25,687 nucleotides of DNA from a virus. The DNA is taken from positions 1-25,687 of IMG/VR virus record IMGVR_UViG_3300028392_000269. One strand, 5' to 3'. A program made the position numbers and the translations under genes. The notes under the pieces were generated by a model, which saw only the letters and a program-made list of their open reading frames with translations, was not told where the DNA came from and did not search any database. Position 1 is the first letter of the stretch, and the number at the start of each line of letters is the position of its first letter. Below are positions 3,347-17,858 of the stretch, piece after piece.

Positions 3347-3967
3347 TTAGTGGTTTGGCTGGGTTTCTACGATGCGGACTACGTTACCTGTGCGTGCGCA
3401 AATCTTGCTCCATTTGTCGAGTTGCTTCTGTGCGAGGTCGTAGCGTCCGCACCATGTAACTACTGACCATGAACGCTCAACGCGCACTGTCTCGTGTGTG
3501 AGTTCCTGTGCGCGAGTGAGGGCGTGCTGTGTGCGATTGACGTCTTCATCAAGGCGAGCCAAAATCCATGCCTTGATGCTAATTTTGCTGTAGCGTGATT
3601 CGGTTTCACCATAGCGTGGCTCGGTGTCGCCGTTGCTGTCGCAGTATCCCCATGACTTGCCGTCTGCGGTGATGTATTCGTAGTTGGTGTACGAGTATTC
3701 GCCTGTGTAGCCTAGGTCTTTGTCTGTGTCTGCGCTGTAACGCGGTGCGAAAATCTTACGGCGGATTGAGACCTTCTGGTCGCTGTCGATGAATGCGTCG
3801 CGTGCTGACTGTGCTGTAAGGAATCGAGCCTGCGCTACGGCGATTTCGCTGGCGATTGCCATGTCTAGGTCGGCTGGTCCAACTTCGATTGCGTATGGGT
3901 ACTTGTTGCCTGCGCTGTTACGGGTGCTGGTCTTACCATCTTCGTGGCGGACGATGTGCTTGTTCAT
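3347..3967 (-). CDS. Unknown phage protein (206 aa) under its own promoter
   Basis: The product begins MNKHIVRHEDGKTST and matches no family I recognise. The middle is rich in Tyr, Ser, Asp and Gly (about residues 78-125). The C-terminal third looks helical and charged (L-D-E-D-V-N-R-T-Q-H-A-L-T-R-A-Q-E-L). It has no membrane segment or signal peptide. It has its own promoter (4012-4041), a 5' leader hairpin (3988-4003) and a strong AAGGAGAG ribosome-binding site. That arrangement is shared with the unknown genes at 13632-14309 and 17094-17390, so it probably belongs to a co-regulated, well-expressed set, possibly early host-takeover proteins (inference). Confidence 0.75.
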   Translation of the reverse strand: MNKHIVRHEDGKTSTRNSAGNKYPYAIEVGPADLDMAIASEIAVAQARFLTAQSARDAFIDSDQKVSIRRKIFAPRYSADTDKDLGYTGEYSYTNYEYITADGKSWGYCDSNGDTEPRYGETESRYSKISIKAWILARLDEDVNRTQHALTRAQELTHETVRVERSWSVVTWCGRYDLAQKQLDKWSKICARTGNVVRIVETQPNH

Positions 3968-3987
3968 TTCTAACTCTCCTTAGACTA

Positions 3988-4011: not shown

Positions 4012-4041
4012 AGTAAACCATATCCCTTGCCAGTTTGTCAA
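4012..4041 (-). promoter_or_regulatory. Promoter A (repeated promoter family)
   Basis: On the minus strand: -35 TTGACA (4036-4041), 18-base spacer containing TGGCAA and ATATGG, and -10 TTTACT (4012-4017) preceded by TG-N (extended -10). The -35 overlaps the stop codon of the RuvC-like gene. Close copies occur at 14353-14382 and 17435-17464, with weaker ones at 17829-17858 and 11882-11911. The elements TTGACA and TGGCAA form an imperfect inverted repeat (5 of 6 arm positions) that could be an operator. Confidence 0.75.
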
Positions 4042-4475
4042 GCAGGGGTCTCTAAGCCCGTGTCGTCGGGGTTCTTGAAGTGCCACCACCACCCGTGGGC
4101 TACGGCGTCCCTCATGTGCTGACCACCCTTCGGCATATCGAACCCTTGGGCGTCCATCCGCTCGAACGCGTGCCTCTTGATAGTCGCTGGCTGCATCGCT
4201 ACGGGGCTGCCGTTACGGTGTGCCAGATATTTCAGTGCGCCGATGAGTTGAGGCGTCTTCATCGCACTGAACCCTTGCTTCTGCGCGAGCCACGGGTACA
4301 ATTTAAAATCTTCAATCACCACCATGTCGAACTTAATGACTTCGATAATCTCCGCCATCTTCAACGGCTCAATCGTCTTAGCCTCTTCAATCTGACCGCC
4401 CAGCCAAACGCACATTCCTACGTGCTTGTCGCCTGGGTCGATTGAAACAACGTGAAGGTTTTTTATTTTGCCCAC
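4038..4475 (-). CDS. RuvC-like Holliday junction resolvase
   Basis: This 145-residue RNase H-fold nuclease has the acidic residues in RuvC order. Asp13 is in V-V-S-I-D-P-G (9-15), Glu55 in M-V-V-I-E-D-F (51-57), and Asp123 in H-M-R-D-A-V-A-H-G (120-128), with His127 taking the last metal-ligand place. It should cut branched DNA made during phage replication and recombination. The start is GTG at 4475, 13 bases inside the end of the polymerase gene, so the two are translationally coupled. Its base composition is C-rich on the plus strand, unlike the G/T-rich plus strand of the genes between 1 and 3300. Confidence 0.8.
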   Translation of the reverse strand: MGKIKNLHVVSIDPGDKHVGMCVWLGGQIEEAKTIEPLKMAEIIEVIKFDMVVIEDFKLYPWLAQKQGFSAMKTPQLIGALKYLAHRNGSPVAMQPATIKRHAFERMDAQGFDMPKGGQHMRDAVAHGWWWHFKNPDDTGLETPA

Positions 4476-6307
4476 TGTTTGTAGTCCGCCTTGAACTCGA
4501 TACCGAACAGTTCTTCAAATGTCGCCACTAATACGTCGCGCACTTGCATCACTGTCTCTTCGGCTTCCTTTGTTGGAACTTCCAGAACCATCGAATCATG
4601 AATCTGCAGTAGAAGCAAGTTTGGGTAGAGACGTTCAACGTCAATCATCGCCATTTTCATCGCTTCCGCCACTCCGCCTTGGATAACTGCGTTGAACGCT
4701 TTGTGGCTCTGCTCGTCAAAGCCCCAGTGACGTAACCGTCCACTAATGAGTTTTACATATCCGCGCTTTTGCACTGCTTGGTCTGCGTATTTGGCTGCTT
4801 GCACGAACTCGGGGAATGCAGACCTGTATTGCTCAACCCACTGTTTCACTTCGGATTCGCTGGCGTCAACACCTGTGTGCATCTTGATTTGTTCGCGTGT
4901 GGTTCGCACTCCTGCACCGTACAACATGCCGAATGTTAGTCGTTTACCAACACTACGGTATTTGTCCCAATCGGGGTGGTCTTTATCGATGCCGAACACT
5001 AGTTTGGTTGTTGCGTCGTGTGCGTCTTCTCCTCGTTCGAGTCTGTCGCGCATTGGCTGGCAGTTCGCCACTGATGCGGCTACTCTAATTTCTGCTTGGC
5101 TGACGTCAATCTCCCACAGTTCGTGGTTGCCTTTCGGCTGGAAGAACGCCCTGACGCCTTCAACGCCATCACCGAACAGTTGGTTCAGTTGGTAGTCGTG
5201 TGGTATGGCTTGCAGTTGGACGCGTTCTACGCTGAGTCGTCCGCTGACCACTTTGGTCTGGCGGAAGTTGGTTCGCAGTCGTCCGTCTTGTCCGACCAGT
5301 TTGCCCCAATTACCGTACCACTTCTCCAGTGCGCTTTTTACTTCGGTCCACCGTAGGTAGGTCTGTGCGTGCGGTATGTCCTTCTTGGCGAGTTTCTTGA
5401 TGGTCTCGTTGTCGAGGCTTGGTGTTCCGCTCGCGCCGATTTTGCTCGGTATGATGCCTAGTGTGCCGTAGTAGTAGGCTTTGGCGGCTGGGATTGTGGG
5501 CTTGAAGGGCAGTTGCTCTTCCAGTTCGGCTTTGAGTTTGCGCAGGATTTCGGCTGATTTCTCGGCTCGTTCGGCGTCGTATCCGATTCCGCGCTGTTCC
5601 ATCTTGTACAGCACTTTCATCAGTTGAATCTCGCGGTCGGCTAGTACGGCTAGGTGCTGGTCGTCTGTTTCGAGCCTGCGCCATTGTACTTCGGCTAGTC
5701 TGAGGGTGAGGGCTGCATCTTGGGCTGCGTATGGTCCGACGATTGCCCAGTCGACGAGGTCGAATCGTTTGGTCAGTCCTGTGCCTTGCTTTTTGAGGGC
5801 TGCTTGGACGTCGTGCTGTTCTTGGGCTACGCCTTCGCCGAATAGCCGTGAGCAGGTGGGTTTAAGTCCTGAACTTTGTAGTGGGTCGAGTAGGGGCTGG
5901 ACGAGTTGGGTGTCCCACATGGTCTGGTCGAGTAGGTCGACGCCACCCCATTCGCGTGTTCCTTCGCGGAGCATGTGTAGGTCGAATTTGGCGTTGTGGA
6001 ACACTAACTGCTGTTTGCTTAGCCAGTACATGAGGTGTGCCCATTGTTCGCGGTCGAGGTTGATGTCTTGGTCGAATGCGCTTTGGGTTTGTCCTGTCTT
6101 CTCGGAGATGCGCCCTTGGTCGAATGGGAAGGCGTAGGCGGTGATGCCTTTGGCTAGCCGTTCTTGTGTACCTTCTTCTCGCCATGCGATTGAGACGATT
6201 GAGACGGTTGCGCCGTCGTCTACGAACAGTCCGCTGGTTTCGGTGTCGACTGCTACGACCATATTGGTCTTGTTGGGTAGCACGTCGGTTGGGTTGTGGA
6301 TTTGCAT
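4463..6307 (-). CDS. polA: Family A DNA polymerase with 3'-5' exonuclease, DpoZ candidate
   Basis: This 614-residue replicative polymerase lacks a 5' nuclease domain. Exonuclease motifs are intact: D-T-E (Asp21, Glu23), H-N-A-K-F-D (104-109) and Y-A-A-Q-D (193-197). The polymerase domain has S-G-R-L-S (355-359), motif A D-V-S-Q-A-E-I-R (401-408), motif B R-S-V-G-K-R-L-T-F-G-M-L-Y-G (451-464) and motif C Q-I-H-D-S (568-572). Motif C is H-D-S, not the usual H-D-E, and the Tyr after the motif A Asp is Val. With purZ, mazZ and purB in the same genome it is a good candidate for DpoZ, the polymerase whose active site and proofreading favour dZTP over dATP. That preference is inferred. Ribosome-binding site AAGGTGAG precedes the ATG. 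Confidence 0.88.
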   Translation of the reverse strand: MQIHNPTDVLPNKTNMVVAVDTETSGLFVDDGATVSIVSIAWREEGTQERLAKGITAYAFPFDQGRISEKTGQTQSAFDQDINLDREQWAHLMYWLSKQQLVFHNAKFDLHMLREGTREWGGVDLLDQTMWDTQLVQPLLDPLQSSGLKPTCSRLFGEGVAQEQHDVQAALKKQGTGLTKRFDLVDWAIVGPYAAQDAALTLRLAEVQWRRLETDDQHLAVLADREIQLMKVLYKMEQRGIGYDAERAEKSAEILRKLKAELEEQLPFKPTIPAAKAYYYGTLGIIPSKIGASGTPSLDNETIKKLAKKDIPHAQTYLRWTEVKSALEKWYGNWGKLVGQDGRLRTNFRQTKVVSGRLSVERVQLQAIPHDYQLNQLFGDGVEGVRAFFQPKGNHELWEIDVSQAEIRVAASVANCQPMRDRLERGEDAHDATTKLVFGIDKDHPDWDKYRSVGKRLTFGMLYGAGVRTTREQIKMHTGVDASESEVKQWVEQYRSAFPEFVQAAKYADQAVQKRGYVKLISGRLRHWGFDEQSHKAFNAVIQGGVAEAMKMAMIDVERLYPNLLLLQIHDSMVLEVPTKEAEETVMQVRDVLVATFEELFGIEFKADYKQWAK

Positions 6308-13631: not shown

Positions 13632-14309
13632 TTAGCACATCACGGCTACGGCGAACTGGTCTGCCTTAGCCTTCTGGTCTGCTAGGTCTGCGCTTGATGG
13701 ATATTGGGTCTTGCCTAGTGCGATTTGGGTGTCCCATGGACCTGTGGTGTTGATTGCCCAAGCCTCGTAGCGGAAGTCAGATTCGCTGCTCCAGCGGTGA
13801 GCGGTGACGCGGTAGACGAAGCCGTTAGTAACTTCGACTTCGGCTTCGAGTACGCGAATGCCTTGGGCTGCGTAGCCCTTGAAGATTTCGATGGCTTCAA
13901 CCTTGCGTAGGGCTTCGGCATCGCGCTCTGCGTCAATCTGGGCTTGGATGCGTGCGGTCTCGTCTGCGTCCCACTGGTTGAAGCCTTCACGTGCTACACG
14001 TACGGTGAGTGAGCGGTTCGTGCCGACTAGCAGTAGGTCCATCTGTGCGTACGGCGTACGACCGTTTTTGCGTGTGTTGCGCTTGACGCTCTCGAATTCG
14101 ACGCCAGCCGCTGCCTTGATAGCCTCAAGGAACTTCGCGCCGTCTGCGGTCTTAGGGTCGAAGATTGACGCTGGAAGTTCTACGGTCCAGTTCTCGTTGG
14201 TACGGGTGATGACTCGGAGTGAGCCGAGAGTGTTGTAGTCGATGCCAATGTTGATGTCGATGTCGAAGGTGGTCTCGCCGATTGTTACGGTTGCGGTGTT
14301 CTTGTTCAT
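13632..14309 (-). CDS. Unknown phage protein (225 aa) under promoter B
   Basis: The product begins MNKNTATVTIGETTFDIDINIG. The N-terminal half looks like beta strands (T-A-T-V-T-I-G-E-T-T-F-D-I-D). The middle is a charged helix (A-R-I-Q-A-Q-I-D-A-E-R-D-A-E-A-L-R-K-V-E-A-I-E). A further beta-rich segment follows (V-E-V-T-N-G-F-V-Y-R-V-T-A-H-R-W). It has no membrane segment, signal peptide or catalytic motif I recognise. It shares promoter, leader hairpin and AAGGAGAG site with the genes at 3347-3967 and 17094-17390. Confidence 0.7.
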   Translation of the reverse strand: MNKNTATVTIGETTFDIDINIGIDYNTLGSLRVITRTNENWTVELPASIFDPKTADGAKFLEAIKAAAGVEFESVKRNTRKNGRTPYAQMDLLLVGTNRSLTVRVAREGFNQWDADETARIQAQIDAERDAEALRKVEAIEIFKGYAAQGIRVLEAEVEVTNGFVYRVTAHRWSSESDFRYEAWAINTTGPWDTQIALGKTQYPSSADLADQKAKADQFAVAVMC

Positions 14310-14327
14310 TTGGTTCTCTCCTTGTTA

Positions 14328-14352: not shown

Positions 14353-14382
14353 ATCCAACCATATGGGTTGCCAGTCTGTCAA
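14353..14382 (-). promoter_or_regulatory. Promoter B (repeated promoter family)
   Basis: On the minus strand: -35 TTGACA (14377-14382), 18-base spacer with TGGCAA and ATATGG, and -10 TTGGAT (14353-14358) with TG-N. The -35 overlaps the purB stop codon, the same placement as promoter A over the RuvC-like stop. The -10 is the weakest of the three close copies. Confidence 0.7.
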
Positions 14383-15662
14383 ATCAAATCCCTTAGGGCG
14401 GTCCTCAGCGTGTCGCCAAGGTCCGAAAGCCCGTCCACGGACGCCGACATTGAGAATACGTCGTCGAAGTCCACGAAGGTATCTGGGAACGCCGTAGGAA
14501 GCGTCCTGCGCACTTCGCGCTCCAAATCCCCCAAAAGGGCTTTCCGTGCCGTCTCGTGGACGTACGCGTGCGCGTCCTTCCGAGACACCCCAGCCTTCAT
14601 CAAAGCAGCCAGAACTCTGTGGCTGTAGACGTCCGTATTCGACCGAACATTCGTATACATGCTGTTAGTCCGAACGTTCAAACCGTTCAACAGGGACGTG
14701 GTGTCGTCCAGTATCGTGTCCGCCACATGGCACAAGTCCACTAACGCCACGCGTTCCACACTCGAATGTGCGATATCACGTTCATGCCACTGCACAATAG
14801 ACGGTTCAATCGCACTGGCGTAACCGCGAGCCAGCCGAGCCAAACCACAGATACGTTCAGCCGTAATCGGATTTCGCTTGTGTGGCATAGAACTCGAACC
14901 GCGCTGTGATTCAGCAAAAGTTTCGTCGACCTCGCGTACGCCACTATGTGCGGATAAACGAATTTCGGTAGCAATAGCCTCGCACACGCTGGTGACATTG
15001 GTGATGCAGTGCGCCCAATGCACAAGACTGTCGCGCATCAAAATCTGACTTGCAACAGGTACTGTCAACAGACCTAGCGATTTAGCCGCTTGAATCTCGA
15101 CATCACGACTGATATCAGCATATGTGCCTGTCGGTCCGCTCAACTTCGCCACCGAAATGTCTTCGAGTGCACCAGTCAACCGCACCAAATTGCGGTCTAA
15201 TGCATACATGAAATCCGCCATTTTGTGACCCCAAGTGTCCACTGTCCCTCGCTGTCCGTGGGTTCTGCCTACACGGTACGTGTTCCAGTGCTTGACTGTA
15301 TGCTGGTGGCAGACGTGTGACAGTTCCAGTGTCTTACGTAGCAGGACGATACTAGCCCGTTGCAGTGCCATTGACTGCGCGGTCTCCACGACGTCGCTGC
15401 TGGTCAGTCCAAGATGCGCGAACTCTGCACCCCAGACGTCTAGAAACGCCACCACATCGTGACGGGTCTCAAGTTCACGCTCTGCCACCTGCTCAGGTGT
15501 GGGGGTTGGGCAGTTCGCTGCTTGTTTCCAAGCACTGTCGGGCAGGACGCCTTCGCTGACTTGTGCACTCAGTACCGCCATCTCTACCGCGACCCACCTT
15601 TCAAGTCGAGCCTCGTCAGACCAGATAGCGGTCATGGCTTCCGATTCGTATCTGCTAATCAT
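14379..15662 (-). CDS. purB: Adenylosuccinate lyase (PurB), phage-encoded
   Basis: This 427-residue lyase is full length for the bacterial family. It has the N-terminal M-I-S-R-Y...M-T-A-I-W-S (1-15), T-R-H-D-V-V-A-F (66-73), L-T-S-S-D-V-V (86-92), G-R-T-H-G-Q (132-137, His135), the mobile catalytic loop with G-S-S-S-M-P-H-K-R-N-P (255-265) and E-R-D-I-A-H-S-S-V-E-R-V (294-305). It removes fumarate from adenylosuccinate, and in Z phages from N6-succino-2-amino-dAMP, giving dZMP. The usual H-A-E-P-T-T after the catalytic THG is R-G-T-V-D-T here, a change beside the active site. It starts within an ATGA overlap with the gene upstream, and promoter B begins at its stop. Its A/T skew differs from its left neighbour. 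Confidence 0.93.
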   Translation of the reverse strand: MISRYESEAMTAIWSDEARLERWVAVEMAVLSAQVSEGVLPDSAWKQAANCPTPTPEQVAERELETRHDVVAFLDVWGAEFAHLGLTSSDVVETAQSMALQRASIVLLRKTLELSHVCHQHTVKHWNTYRVGRTHGQRGTVDTWGHKMADFMYALDRNLVRLTGALEDISVAKLSGPTGTYADISRDVEIQAAKSLGLLTVPVASQILMRDSLVHWAHCITNVTSVCEAIATEIRLSAHSGVREVDETFAESQRGSSSMPHKRNPITAERICGLARLARGYASAIEPSIVQWHERDIAHSSVERVALVDLCHVADTILDDTTSLLNGLNVRTNSMYTNVRSNTDVYSHRVLAALMKAGVSRKDAHAYVHETARKALLGDLEREVRRTLPTAFPDTFVDFDDVFSMSASVDGLSDLGDTLRTALRDLI

Positions 15663-16136: not shown

Positions 16137-16373
16137 CTAGAACTTGTATTTCGGGCTGATGATTTCCAACGCCACTAGAATCTCATGGGGGGTACTGTCC
16201 AAAGCCTTGCACAGAGGCGGTAGTACGGCGATACTTGGTCGGGTTTCAAGCGTGAAGTACCGCCAGAGGTTGCCTCGGTTGATGCCGATTGCGACCGCCA
16301 CCTGCTCAAGTGAGGTGTAGCCTAGTTCGTTCATGCGATTGCGTAGGAATTTCATTCCTGTTTGGGTCTTCAT
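16137..16373 (-). CDS. XRE-type helix-turn-helix DNA-binding protein (78 aa)
   Basis: The product begins MKTQTGMKFLRNRMNELGY. The helix-turn-helix is about residues 19-45 (T-S-L-E-Q-V-A-V-A-I-G-I-N-R-G-N-L-W-R-Y-F), followed by a capping helix (I-A-V-L-P-P-L-C-K-A-L-D). Proteins of this size act as Cro- or repressor-like transcription factors. The ATG at 16373 is chosen for its AAGGAGA site; an in-frame ATG at 16400 lies in the leader. It is the first gene before purB in this unit, so it may control purB and nearby promoters (inference). A second HTH protein is at 17567-17803. Confidence 0.8.
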   Translation of the reverse strand: MKTQTGMKFLRNRMNELGYTSLEQVAVAIGINRGNLWRYFTLETRPSIAVLPPLCKALDSTPHEILVALEIISPKYKF

Positions 16374-16407
16374 GGTATCTCCTTCTGTGACCTGTCTCAT
16401 CGGTGCT

Positions 16408-16440
16408 GGGCGGTCAGCCCCAACAGACGCCCGAGGGCGT
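16408..16440 (-). other. Tandem hairpins in the leader of the 16137-16373 gene
   Basis: Two stems lie side by side. GGGC/GCCC (16408-16411, 16417-16420) has a 5-base loop. ACGCCC/GGGCGT (16427-16432, 16435-16440) has only 2 bases between its arms. The first resembles the leader hairpins of promoters A to C. No promoter of that family was found here, and no U-run follows. Confidence 0.5.
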
Positions 16441-16445
16441 TTCGA

Positions 16446-16577
16446 CTAGTGCGTTTCTAACCAGCCTACGAAACCTAGAACTAGGATTACGACGGCAATT
16501 CCGATTATGGTCTCGACGATGCTCTTGAATTTAAATCCGCGAGCGGTCCACGGTGCGTTATTCCAGCGTTCAAACAT
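16446..16577 (-). CDS. Single-pass membrane protein (43 aa), unknown
   Basis: The product begins MFERWNNAPWTARGFKFKS, then has one hydrophobic segment (I-V-E-T-I-I-G-I-A-V-V-I-L-V-L-G-F-V-G-W-L). The basic N-terminal side predicts a cytoplasmic N-terminus. GGAGG lies about 8 bases before the ATG at 16577; the frame upstream to 16682 is shadow sequence. Small early membrane proteins of phages may alter superinfection or host membrane enzymes, but nothing here shows that. Confidence 0.65.
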   Translation of the reverse strand: MFERWNNAPWTARGFKFKSIVETIIGIAVVILVLGFVGWLETH

Positions 16578-16579
16578 GA

Positions 16580-16786
16580 TTAGACCTCCGTTTTGGTGAG
16601 CAGGGCTTTGACTTGGGCGTGCACGTCGGACGTGATAGACGAGATGTCTGCTGCATCGTAGCCGACACCCATATCGCTCCAAAGTGTGCCGTAAGTGCTG
16701 TAGCCTGTCGCGTTATTGGTCAACTTGACGGACGGGCGACCGTAACGGGTCGTGACTTCAAAGGTCCAGTCGATTAGTGTGTTCAT
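16580..16786 (-). CDS. Unknown phage protein (68 aa)
   Basis: The product begins MNTLIDWTFEVTTRYGRPSVKLTNN. The first half is beta-rich and polar, and the second half is a helix ending K-A-L-L-T-K-T-E-V. It has a strong AAGGAGAG site and a one-base overlap with the upstream stop (TAATG). No family is recognised. Confidence 0.65.
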   Translation of the reverse strand: MNTLIDWTFEVTTRYGRPSVKLTNNATGYSTYGTLWSDMGVGYDAADISSITSDVHAQVKALLTKTEV

Positions 16787-17091
16787 TACTTACTCTCCTT
16801 GTTGATTCGTACTTGGCTGAATGGGATGCCGTGCTTGTCGGCGTATTCCTTCTTGATTTTGGTAATGGCTAGTGACTTCTCGCGTGCGAGGGCTGTTGTG
16901 TGTAGCAGGTTGATTACGCGTAGGGCTGGCGATGCGATGTCGTCGCAGATGCCGTCCGTGCCGTCAGGGATTGCGCCTGCTTCCCACATCATGTAGAGCC
17001 AGTCGATTACGGTGTCGAGGTCTTCGAGGCTTGGCTTGCCTGCGCCCGTGATGTATTCGTGTGCTAGGTTCTTGATTTCCTCGCTTGTCAT
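16786..17091 (-). CDS. Unknown phage protein (101 aa)
   Basis: The product begins MTSEEIKNLAHEYITGAGKPSLEDL. It looks largely helical, with an acidic middle (G-T-D-G-I-C-D-D-I) and a basic C-terminal helix (A-I-T-K-I-K-K-E-Y-A-D-K). It starts two bases after the stop of the 17094-17390 gene, so it shares promoter C. No family is recognised. Confidence 0.65.
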   Translation of the reverse strand: MTSEEIKNLAHEYITGAGKPSLEDLDTVIDWLYMMWEAGAIPDGTDGICDDIASPALRVINLLHTTALAREKSLAITKIKKEYADKHGIPFSQVRINKESK

Positions 17092-17093
17092 GA

Positions 17094-17390
17094 CTAAGCA
17101 CCAGCCTCTACGCGAGAGGCTTTGATGGCTTTGGCGTGGGCTTTGATTGCCTTCGCGGTTGCGTCGATTCGGGCGCGTGCTTCGGCGTCTGCGTGCGAGA
17201 TTTCGAGATTGACGGTGACGCTGAGTTCAGCGACGGCTGCGATGGCTTTCGCGATAGCGTCGTTATCGATACCTGCTTGAGCGAATGCCCAAGCGACGGC
17301 GTTGAGGGCGGTCTTGGCTGTGATGACGCTTGCATCTGCAGATGAGAGCATGGCGTTGATTGTGGCTTGCGTGGGCTTGGTGGTCTTCAT
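17094..17390 (-). CDS. Ala-rich helical protein (98 aa) under promoter C, unknown
   Basis: The product begins MKTTKPTQATINAMLSSADAS. It is strongly Ala-rich and predicted to be almost all helix (A-K-T-A-L-N-A-V-A-W-A-F; A-I-A-K-A-I-A-A-V-A-E-L; A-T-A-K-A-I-K-A-H-A-K-A-I-K-A). It suggests a coiled coil or helical bundle. The start at 17390 follows GAAGGAGAG; an in-frame ATG at 17456 lies inside the promoter. It shares control elements with the unknown genes at 3347-3967 and 13632-14309. Confidence 0.7.
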   Translation of the reverse strand: MKTTKPTQATINAMLSSADASVITAKTALNAVAWAFAQAGIDNDAIAKAIAAVAELSVTVNLEISHADAEARARIDATAKAIKAHAKAIKASRVEAGA

Positions 17391-17408
17391 TCGAACTCTC
17401 CTTCGATT

Positions 17409-17426
17409 GGGGGCTTTGTTGCCCTC
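17409..17426 (-). promoter_or_regulatory. 5' leader hairpin downstream of promoter C
   Basis: GGGGGC (17409-17414) pairs with GCCCTC (17421-17426), one pair being G-U, around a 6-base loop. Its position relative to the -10 at 17435-17440 matches promoters A and B. Confidence 0.55.
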
Positions 17427-17434
17427 ATACAACA

Positions 17435-17464
17435 AGTCAATCATATCGGTTGCCACCCTGTCAA
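17435..17464 (-). promoter_or_regulatory. Promoter C (repeated promoter family)
   Basis: On the minus strand: -35 TTGACA (17459-17464), 18-base spacer with TGGCAA and ATATGA, and -10 TTGACT (17435-17440) with TG-N. It lies directly downstream of a strong terminator, so it restarts transcription for the genes from 17390 on. Confidence 0.75.
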
Positions 17465-17476
17465 ATAGGGGGGTAC

Positions 17477-17546
17477 AAAAAAGACCCGTCGGCGTGTCTC
17501 AACCAGCAGAAGGAGAGTTGCCGCTGGGAAACGACGCCGACGGGTC
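17477..17546 (-). terminator. Intrinsic terminator with extended stem and anti-Shine-Dalgarno apical loop
   Basis: GACCCGTCGGCGT (17483-17495) and ACGCCGACGGGTC (17534-17546) are perfect 13-base arms. On the minus strand the stem is followed by six U (17477-17482), so it ends transcription of the HTH gene stopping at 17567. Inside, GTCTC/GAAAC (one pair is G-U on the minus strand only) and CCAGC/GCTGG (17503-17507, 17523-17527) extend the stem. The 15-base apical loop (17508-17522) contains AACUCUCCUUC on the minus strand. That is a perfect complement of the GAAGGAGAGTT ribosome-binding site of the next gene. This is an elaborate form for a plain terminator and could be a small RNA 3' end. 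Confidence 0.85.
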
Positions 17547-17566: not shown

Positions 17567-17803
17567 CTACGCGACTAGGCTCGGATTCTCGACAGTGTCG
17601 AAGATATTCTCGCGCAAGAACGAACTGAACGAATTCGGACCGTTCTCATACGCTGATGAAAGGTCGTCCATCTTCAAATCGAACTCATGCGAGATTTTGA
17701 TAAGTGTGCGAACGCTCGGCAGACGGTGACCATTTCTCATACGAGACGCCATCGTGAAATGGCAGCCCACGCGCTCCGCGAACTCTTCATTTGTAACAGC
17801 CAT
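17567..17803 (-). CDS. XRE-type helix-turn-helix protein, repressor/Cro candidate (78 aa)
   Basis: The product begins MAVTNEEFAERVGCHFTMASRMRNGHRLPSVRTLIKISHEF. The helix-turn-helix is about residues 6-27, with L-P-S-V-R-T-L as the next helix. It is close to lambdoid and XRE regulators in length and pattern. It is a one-gene unit with its own promoter (D) and a strong terminator. It sits at the border between the lysis genes and the accessory block. The inverted repeat over the -35 of promoters A to D is a reasonable operator for it (inference). A GAAAGGAG site precedes the ATG. Confidence 0.82.
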   Translation of the reverse strand: MAVTNEEFAERVGCHFTMASRMRNGHRLPSVRTLIKISHEFDLKMDDLSSAYENGPNSFSSFLRENIFDTVENPSLVA

Positions 17804-17828: not shown

Positions 17829-17858
17829 AGTCAATCACAGGACTAGCCACCGTGGCAA
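17829..17858 (-). promoter_or_regulatory. Promoter D of the HTH gene
   Basis: On the minus strand: -35 TTGCCA (17853-17858), 18-base spacer starting CGGTGGC and ending CTGTGA, and -10 TTGACT (17829-17834) with TG-N. TTGCCA-N3-TGGCTA is an inverted repeat over the -35 (5 of 6 arm positions). The transcript start would be about 18 bases before the ATG, so there is no room for a leader hairpin, unlike A, B, C and E. Confidence 0.65.

Follow-up and report, generated by a model that had tools for sequence, protein, structure and literature searches.

The apical loop of the intrinsic terminator that ends the mRNA of a small phage HTH protein is complementary to sequence boxes in front of genes behind a shared set of operator-like promoters, and in two relatives both the loop and the boxes have changed and still fit each other. 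We consider it rather likely, judging from these sequence relationships, that the 3' end of the HTH mRNA is an antisense RNA which masks the start regions of the operator-regulated genes. The window, i.e. the whole stretch of DNA that was analysed, is a virus record of 25.7 kb. The following features are concerned:

17844..17858, minus strand: operator-like site D (TTGCCACGGTGGCTA), the HTH gene's own promoter (repeat family D1; operator regex)
17567..17803, minus strand: gene of a small HTH_3 (Cro/CI-type) protein of 78 aa, the mRNA of which bears the terminator hairpin (Pfam HTH_3, E 9.5e-9, above cut-off)
17477..17546, minus strand: intrinsic terminator of the HTH transcript, a hairpin with a U6 tail (MFE -43.8 kcal/mol, z -7.8)
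17509..17519, minus strand: apical loop segment AACUCUCCUUC, candidate anti-leader element (11, 8 and 10 nt complementary to the C, B and A leader boxes)
17450..17464, minus strand: operator/promoter C (TTGACAGGGTGGCAA overlapping the -35; repeat family D1; operator regex)
17411..17424, minus strand: 5' leader hairpin of transcript C (GGGC-AACAAA-GCCC; leader folding)
17394..17404, minus strand: putative target box and Shine-Dalgarno sequence (SD) of gene 17094-17390 (GAAGGAGAGTT; 11-nt Watson-Crick match to the loop)
17094..17390, minus strand: first gene of operon C, 98 aa, first gene after promoter C
16793..16800, minus strand: second AAGGAGAG box inside operon C, gene 16580-16786 (-9.1 kcal/mol, among the best sites outside the operator leaders)
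14368..14382, minus strand: operator/promoter B (TTGACAGACTGGCAA; repeat family D1; operator regex)
14316..14323, minus strand: putative target box and SD of gene 13632-14309 (AAGGAGAG), operator B (8-nt match to the loop)
4027..4041, minus strand: operator/promoter A (TTGACAAACTGGCAA; repeat family D1; operator regex)
3972..3981, minus strand: putative target box and SD of gene 3347-3967 (AAGGAGAGTT), operator A (10-nt match to the loop)

The HTH gene, its terminator and the operator-like promoters

On the minus strand of the window, tail genes (tape measure, minor tail) are followed by an M23 peptidase/endolysin, a small gene, the HTH gene, the terminator and the operons C, B and A. These operons encode a PurB-like lyase, a primase/polymerase, a DNA polymerase I and a PurZ-like synthetase. 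The operator-like palindrome TTGNCANNNTGGCAA is common to the promoters of operons A, B and C and of the HTH gene.

Three IMG/VR records contain the HTH protein, namely L002, which is of the same species, and two others with 85% (L003) and 78% (L004) identity; L003 lies within a record of 41.6 kb (G001) and L004 within a record of 39.8 kb (G002). The TTGNCANNNTGGCAA operators co-occur with the HTH gene in all three phages (3/3), and the HTH protein may bind these operators in the regulon of promoters A to D. More relatives with the region were sought via the primase, the A-gene family, the C-operon family and GTDB genomes, which yielded just the same phages and one short contig of the same species, and an INPHARED nucleotide search with the region gave no match. 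No comparable terminator was seen by inspection at the distant HTH relatives L009 and Streptomyces Galactica, or, judged by gene order, in Arthrobacter Pumancara, where the next gene overlaps the HTH gene. A 17-nt loop word in L007 turned out to be a chance match in unrelated DNA. The feature is thus known from three phages of one lineage.

The terminator consists of an outer stem of 13 pairs (GACCCGUCGGCGU/ACGCCGACGGGUC), the U6 tail (17477-17482) and an inner stem (CCAGCGG/CUGCUGG) with one G-U pair. The initial annotation had described these three elements, and refolding recovered them and favoured the minus-strand RNA (z -7.8) over the weaker plus strand (z -4.1). With its GC-rich 13-bp stem, its U tract and its position at the end of a gene, the hairpin has the features of a rho-independent terminator. 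The loop described there was present as well, and its size of 15 bases was refined to a strictly unpaired part of 11-13 nt, with two weak A-U pairs possible inside the window loop. G001 and G002 have retained the terminator at the corresponding position and with both stems (z about -5.9 in each), and its stability is well past that of shuffled sequences in each of the three phages. A search of Rfam at the gathering threshold gave no match to the hairpin in the window, L003 or L004. The plus-strand word GAAGGAGAG was considered as SD of an antisense gene and dropped, because no ATG or GTG is found at SD spacing.

A CGACACG-like word, which also occurs in the 3' arm of the HTH terminator, recurs in hairpins just before several operator promoters (e.g. 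L012:19150-19210, L015:740-800 and window 4042-4070). These hairpins could be terminators that lack a U tract.

Complementarity between the loop and leader boxes in three phages

The pairing segment is located in the apical loop of the hairpin. There, AACUCUCCUUC can pair without mismatch over 11 nt with GAAGGAGAGUU of gene 17094-17390, for which no match was obtained in PHROG or Pfam, and over 10 nt with the box of gene 3347-3967. Both matches agree with those initially reported, as do the boxes in front of the genes 13632-14309 and 16580-16786, where AAGGAGAG was located at 14316..14323 and 16793..16800. In the window AAGGAGAG occurs five times (0.47 expected), four times at SD positions and once inverted in the loop, and the sole occurrence of CTCTCCTT on the coding strand is the loop itself (17509..17519). 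Likewise, each record has a single coding-strand copy of the exact anti-box, which reads AACTCTCCTT in the window and CACTCTCTCC in both relatives, and this copy is within the loop. In most predicted leaders the box is unpaired or weakly paired. A short hairpin of the GGGC...GCCC type opens nearly every operator-led transcript directly before the SD box (A, B and C; L012, L013, L015 and L016), and is predicted to be a 5' stability or regulatory element.

For G001 and G002, the operator-like promoters were listed by patterns independent of the SD, and a simple script of our own, rather than a standard gene finder, identified the gene starts. An initial test per genome relied on a loose operator regex that admitted false positives; an inspected list took its place. 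In 10 of the 13 operator-like promoters of these two phages that have a downstream start codon (HTH gene excluded), a small 5' hairpin is followed by the box and then by ATG. The loop CAGUUCCCACUCUCUCCUG is the same in G001 and G002 and unlike that of the window, and the leader boxes of the relatives (such as GAGAGAGU, GAGAGAGAG, GAGGGAGU or GGAGAGAGU) fit it; in parallel fashion, the AAGGAGAG(UU) boxes of the window fit the window loop. For example, GGAGAGUU is matched by the loop of the window (AACUCUCC) and GGAGAGAGU by that of G002 (ACUCUCUCC). Between loop and leaders, the best matches reach 11, 10 and 8 nt for the window, 8 and 7 nt for G001 and 10, 9, 8 and 7 nt for G002, and two G001 leaders match the loop over just 6 nt. 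When the loops were swapped between the phages, the run became shorter in 8 of 13 leaders and longer in none; the raw duplex energies were not worse in every case. Loop identity between G001 and G002 (20/20, flanks 83%; P 0.02 ignoring gapped columns) is only modest evidence.

At least seven contiguous Watson-Crick pairs with the phage's own loop were found in 9/13 operator leaders and in 12/124 other gene starts of the three phages (Fisher p 4e-6), or in 9/16 leaders if three boxless operator-like promoters are counted as failures (p 4e-5); as the leaders may have spread by duplication or shared ancestry, they are not fully independent, and these p-values overstate independence. The three promoters (L013:4196, L013:15542 and L015:17051; 3/16) have leaders without a GAGAG box, which means that the RNA element is not common to every operator-like promoter. 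The runs complementary to the 16S anti-SD had a mean of 5.0 nt in operator leaders and 4.8 nt in other starts (p 0.45); since these do not differ, the operator leaders are not simply stronger SDs. The SD of the HTH gene itself is a poor match to the loop (5-6 nt in all three phages).

Dimer co-folding, a method that cannot represent a pseudoknot-type contact, predicted no complex of loop and leader. Because standard co-folding cannot form this topology, accessibility-corrected duplex energies were used, which had a mean of -5.2 kcal/mol for the targets and +1.9 kcal/mol for other starts (p 8e-6). The corrected energy was near zero or positive for window A, G001 L013:591, G002 3068 and G002 18786. 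For G001 by itself, the raw duplex energy was not significant (p 0.17).

Any CU-rich loop pairs to some degree with any GA-rich SD. The complementarity could therefore be a chance match, as would be given by any CUCUCC loop, and the terminator a plain insulator between the tail/lysis side and operon C. SDs are purine-rich, 23/124 unrelated gene starts also show runs of at least 6 nt with the loop, and the energy tests for G001 alone are weak. Coincidence is nevertheless unlikely, since the enrichment at operator-led genes has no counterpart in the 16S control, loop and leaders change together across the phages, and the coding strand bears the exact anti-box just once. Furthermore, none of 3000 shuffled loops of equal composition reached the observed mean run of 7.54 (shuffled 4.49 +/- 0.55).

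A possible antisense role of the HTH mRNA

The reading we lean towards is that the apical loop of the terminator serves as an antisense element directed at a group of related leader boxes, which occupy the SD position of the genes behind the promoters sharing TTGNCANNNTGGCAA. The HTH transcript could come alone from promoter D or arise as read-through of the tail and lysis genes that lie upstream, and its 3' end would accumulate. In the A, B and C mRNAs, the loop would then pair with the box, which is mostly single-stranded and lies after the 5' hairpin and before the start codon, and block binding of the 30S subunit. The same genes would thus be hit twice, by the HTH protein at the promoter and by the RNA at the start site. 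Because its own SD matches the loop poorly, the regulator mRNA would largely spare itself. The location of the HTH gene downstream of the tail and lysis genes would suit a switch from early to late expression.

In the initial annotation, the leaders of promoters A to C had been proposed as targets of the 3' end of the HTH transcript, in trans or in cis. There is partial support for this interpretation, which at present explains the evidence best: its core agrees with the joint change of loop and boxes in two relatives, where they still fit, and with a preference for operator-led genes that the 16S anti-SD does not explain. An action in cis only is improbable, given that there are matching leaders many kilobases apart. 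Since the targets lie at several loci far from each other, action in trans is more likely than masking in cis alone, and the RNA probably acts in trans.

Pure insulation in cis would mean that the loop in read-through RNA masks the SD of gene 17094-17390, so that just the RNA from promoter C is translated. Start sites of T4 late genes are hidden in a similar manner in early read-through transcripts. The terminator is indeed situated directly upstream of promoter C, and the adjacent gene has the best match (11 nt). However, matches of like length occur at distant loci (window A 10 nt; G002 11744 10 nt; G002 880 9 nt), and the adjacent C leader in G001 matches over just 6 nt, which makes this explanation quite improbable.

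We give equally little credence to a site acting at the DNA level, where GGAGAGAG would be bound by a protein downstream of each promoter and, inverted, in the terminator, with the RNA match being incidental. The stoperators of mycobacteriophages would be a parallel. The boxes do keep a constant position behind the operators, and the inverted copy is in an intergenic region. However, the boxes are at SD distance from the ATG and the inverted copy lies within an RNA loop. In addition, GAGGGAGU in two leaders of different genes keeps the RNA pairing via G-U and alters the DNA word.

Finally, the pairing might protect or remodel the mRNAs and thus activate or stabilise them, as in the case of IsrK of prophage Gifsy-1, a phage RNA with messenger and trans-acting roles which turns on translation of an inactive transcript (PMC4825925). 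The boxes of G001 and several of those in G002 match the 16S anti-SD poorly (3-5 nt), so a free SD may not be needed for translation; this option is nevertheless the least probable one, as pairing would cover the ribosome-binding region and the box is mostly accessible in the predicted leaders, which leaves little to open.

A more far-reaching version of the antisense reading, which we put forward tentatively and with slightly less than even confidence, is a bifunctional repressor mRNA. The protein would close the promoters of the regulon, and the terminator loop would close in trans the ribosome-binding sites of mRNAs already made, with loop and boxes co-evolving as a private code of each phage. 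This would be an RNA counterpart of T4 RegA/RegB. If true, it would be a compact way to switch off a set of phage genes, as a single transcript supplies both the transcriptional repressor and the antisense RNA for the same genes. A further consequence would be that a trans-acting code can reside in the intrinsic terminator loops of phage regulators, and comparisons of such loops with leader boxes in phage genomes could serve to look for it. The natural matched changes in loop-leader pairs make a direct test simple.

Known RNA systems and further features of the window

In Listeria, LhrC1-5 block translation by means of C/U-rich loops, among them the terminator loop, which pair with the SD region, and RNAIII, RsaE and SprD of Staphylococcus and FsrA of Bacillus are named as further sRNAs with a UCCC motif (PMC4132741). 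As in anti-SD loop sRNAs of the LhrC or RNAIII type, the phage loop is C/U-rich and complementary to several SD regions. The loops of G001 and G002 contain UUCCCACUCUCUCC including UCCC, yet their pairing part is CUCUCUCC, and the window loop has UCUCC, not UCCC. Unlike LhrC-type RNAs, which are stand-alone host sRNAs, the phage loop sits in the mRNA of a regulator; its best matches comprise 8-11 nt and are tuned to one set of leaders, as judged here from sequence.

A regulator mRNA with an anti-SD motif in the 3' region is also represented by icaR of S. aureus, where UCCCCUG in the 3'UTR pairs with the mRNA's own SD and invites RNase III (PMC3868564). In contrast to icaR, the SD of the phage HTH gene is spared in all three phages (runs of 5-6 nt), and other genes with operator-like promoters are matched.

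Among phage antisense RNAs are the CI RNA of P4 and the C4 RNA of P1. A further one is lambda OOP (review PMC12197685). The proposed phage RNA would resemble these three as a small RNA that controls phage developmental genes by base-pairing. OOP, P4 CI and P1 C4 act mainly on one locus (cis-encoded or one leader), whereas the loop described here fits 3-5 separate leaders per phage. Phage T4 silences its early mRNAs by the nuclease RegB, which cuts the SD word GGAG, and by RegA, which acts at start sites (PMC3014915). The mechanism proposed here would likewise be a post-transcriptional shut-off of phage genes at the start region; unlike the protein effectors of T4, its effector would be an RNA loop on a repressor mRNA. 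Within the literature covered, which was partial, no paper was found in which the terminator loop of a repressor mRNA targets the regulon of that repressor.

Beside the regulatory elements, the window encodes a PurZ-like 2-aminoadenylosuccinate synthetase (1119-2192; PHROG 1211, E 8e-81), with relatives in Arthrobacter and Streptomyces phages, a DNA polymerase I with a 3'-5' exonuclease domain (4463-6307) and an adenylosuccinate-lyase-like protein (14379-15662). Judging from these genes, the phage may carry 2-aminoadenine (Z) DNA.

Furthermore, a type II hammerhead ribozyme (Rfam RF02276; 43.4 bits, cut-off 37) was detected on the minus strand at 16386-16447, inside operon C and just upstream of a second HTH gene (16137-16373). 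It was not found in the scanned parts of G001 and G002 (L012, L016). The catalytic core of this ribozyme is CCGAUGAG instead of CUGAUGAG.
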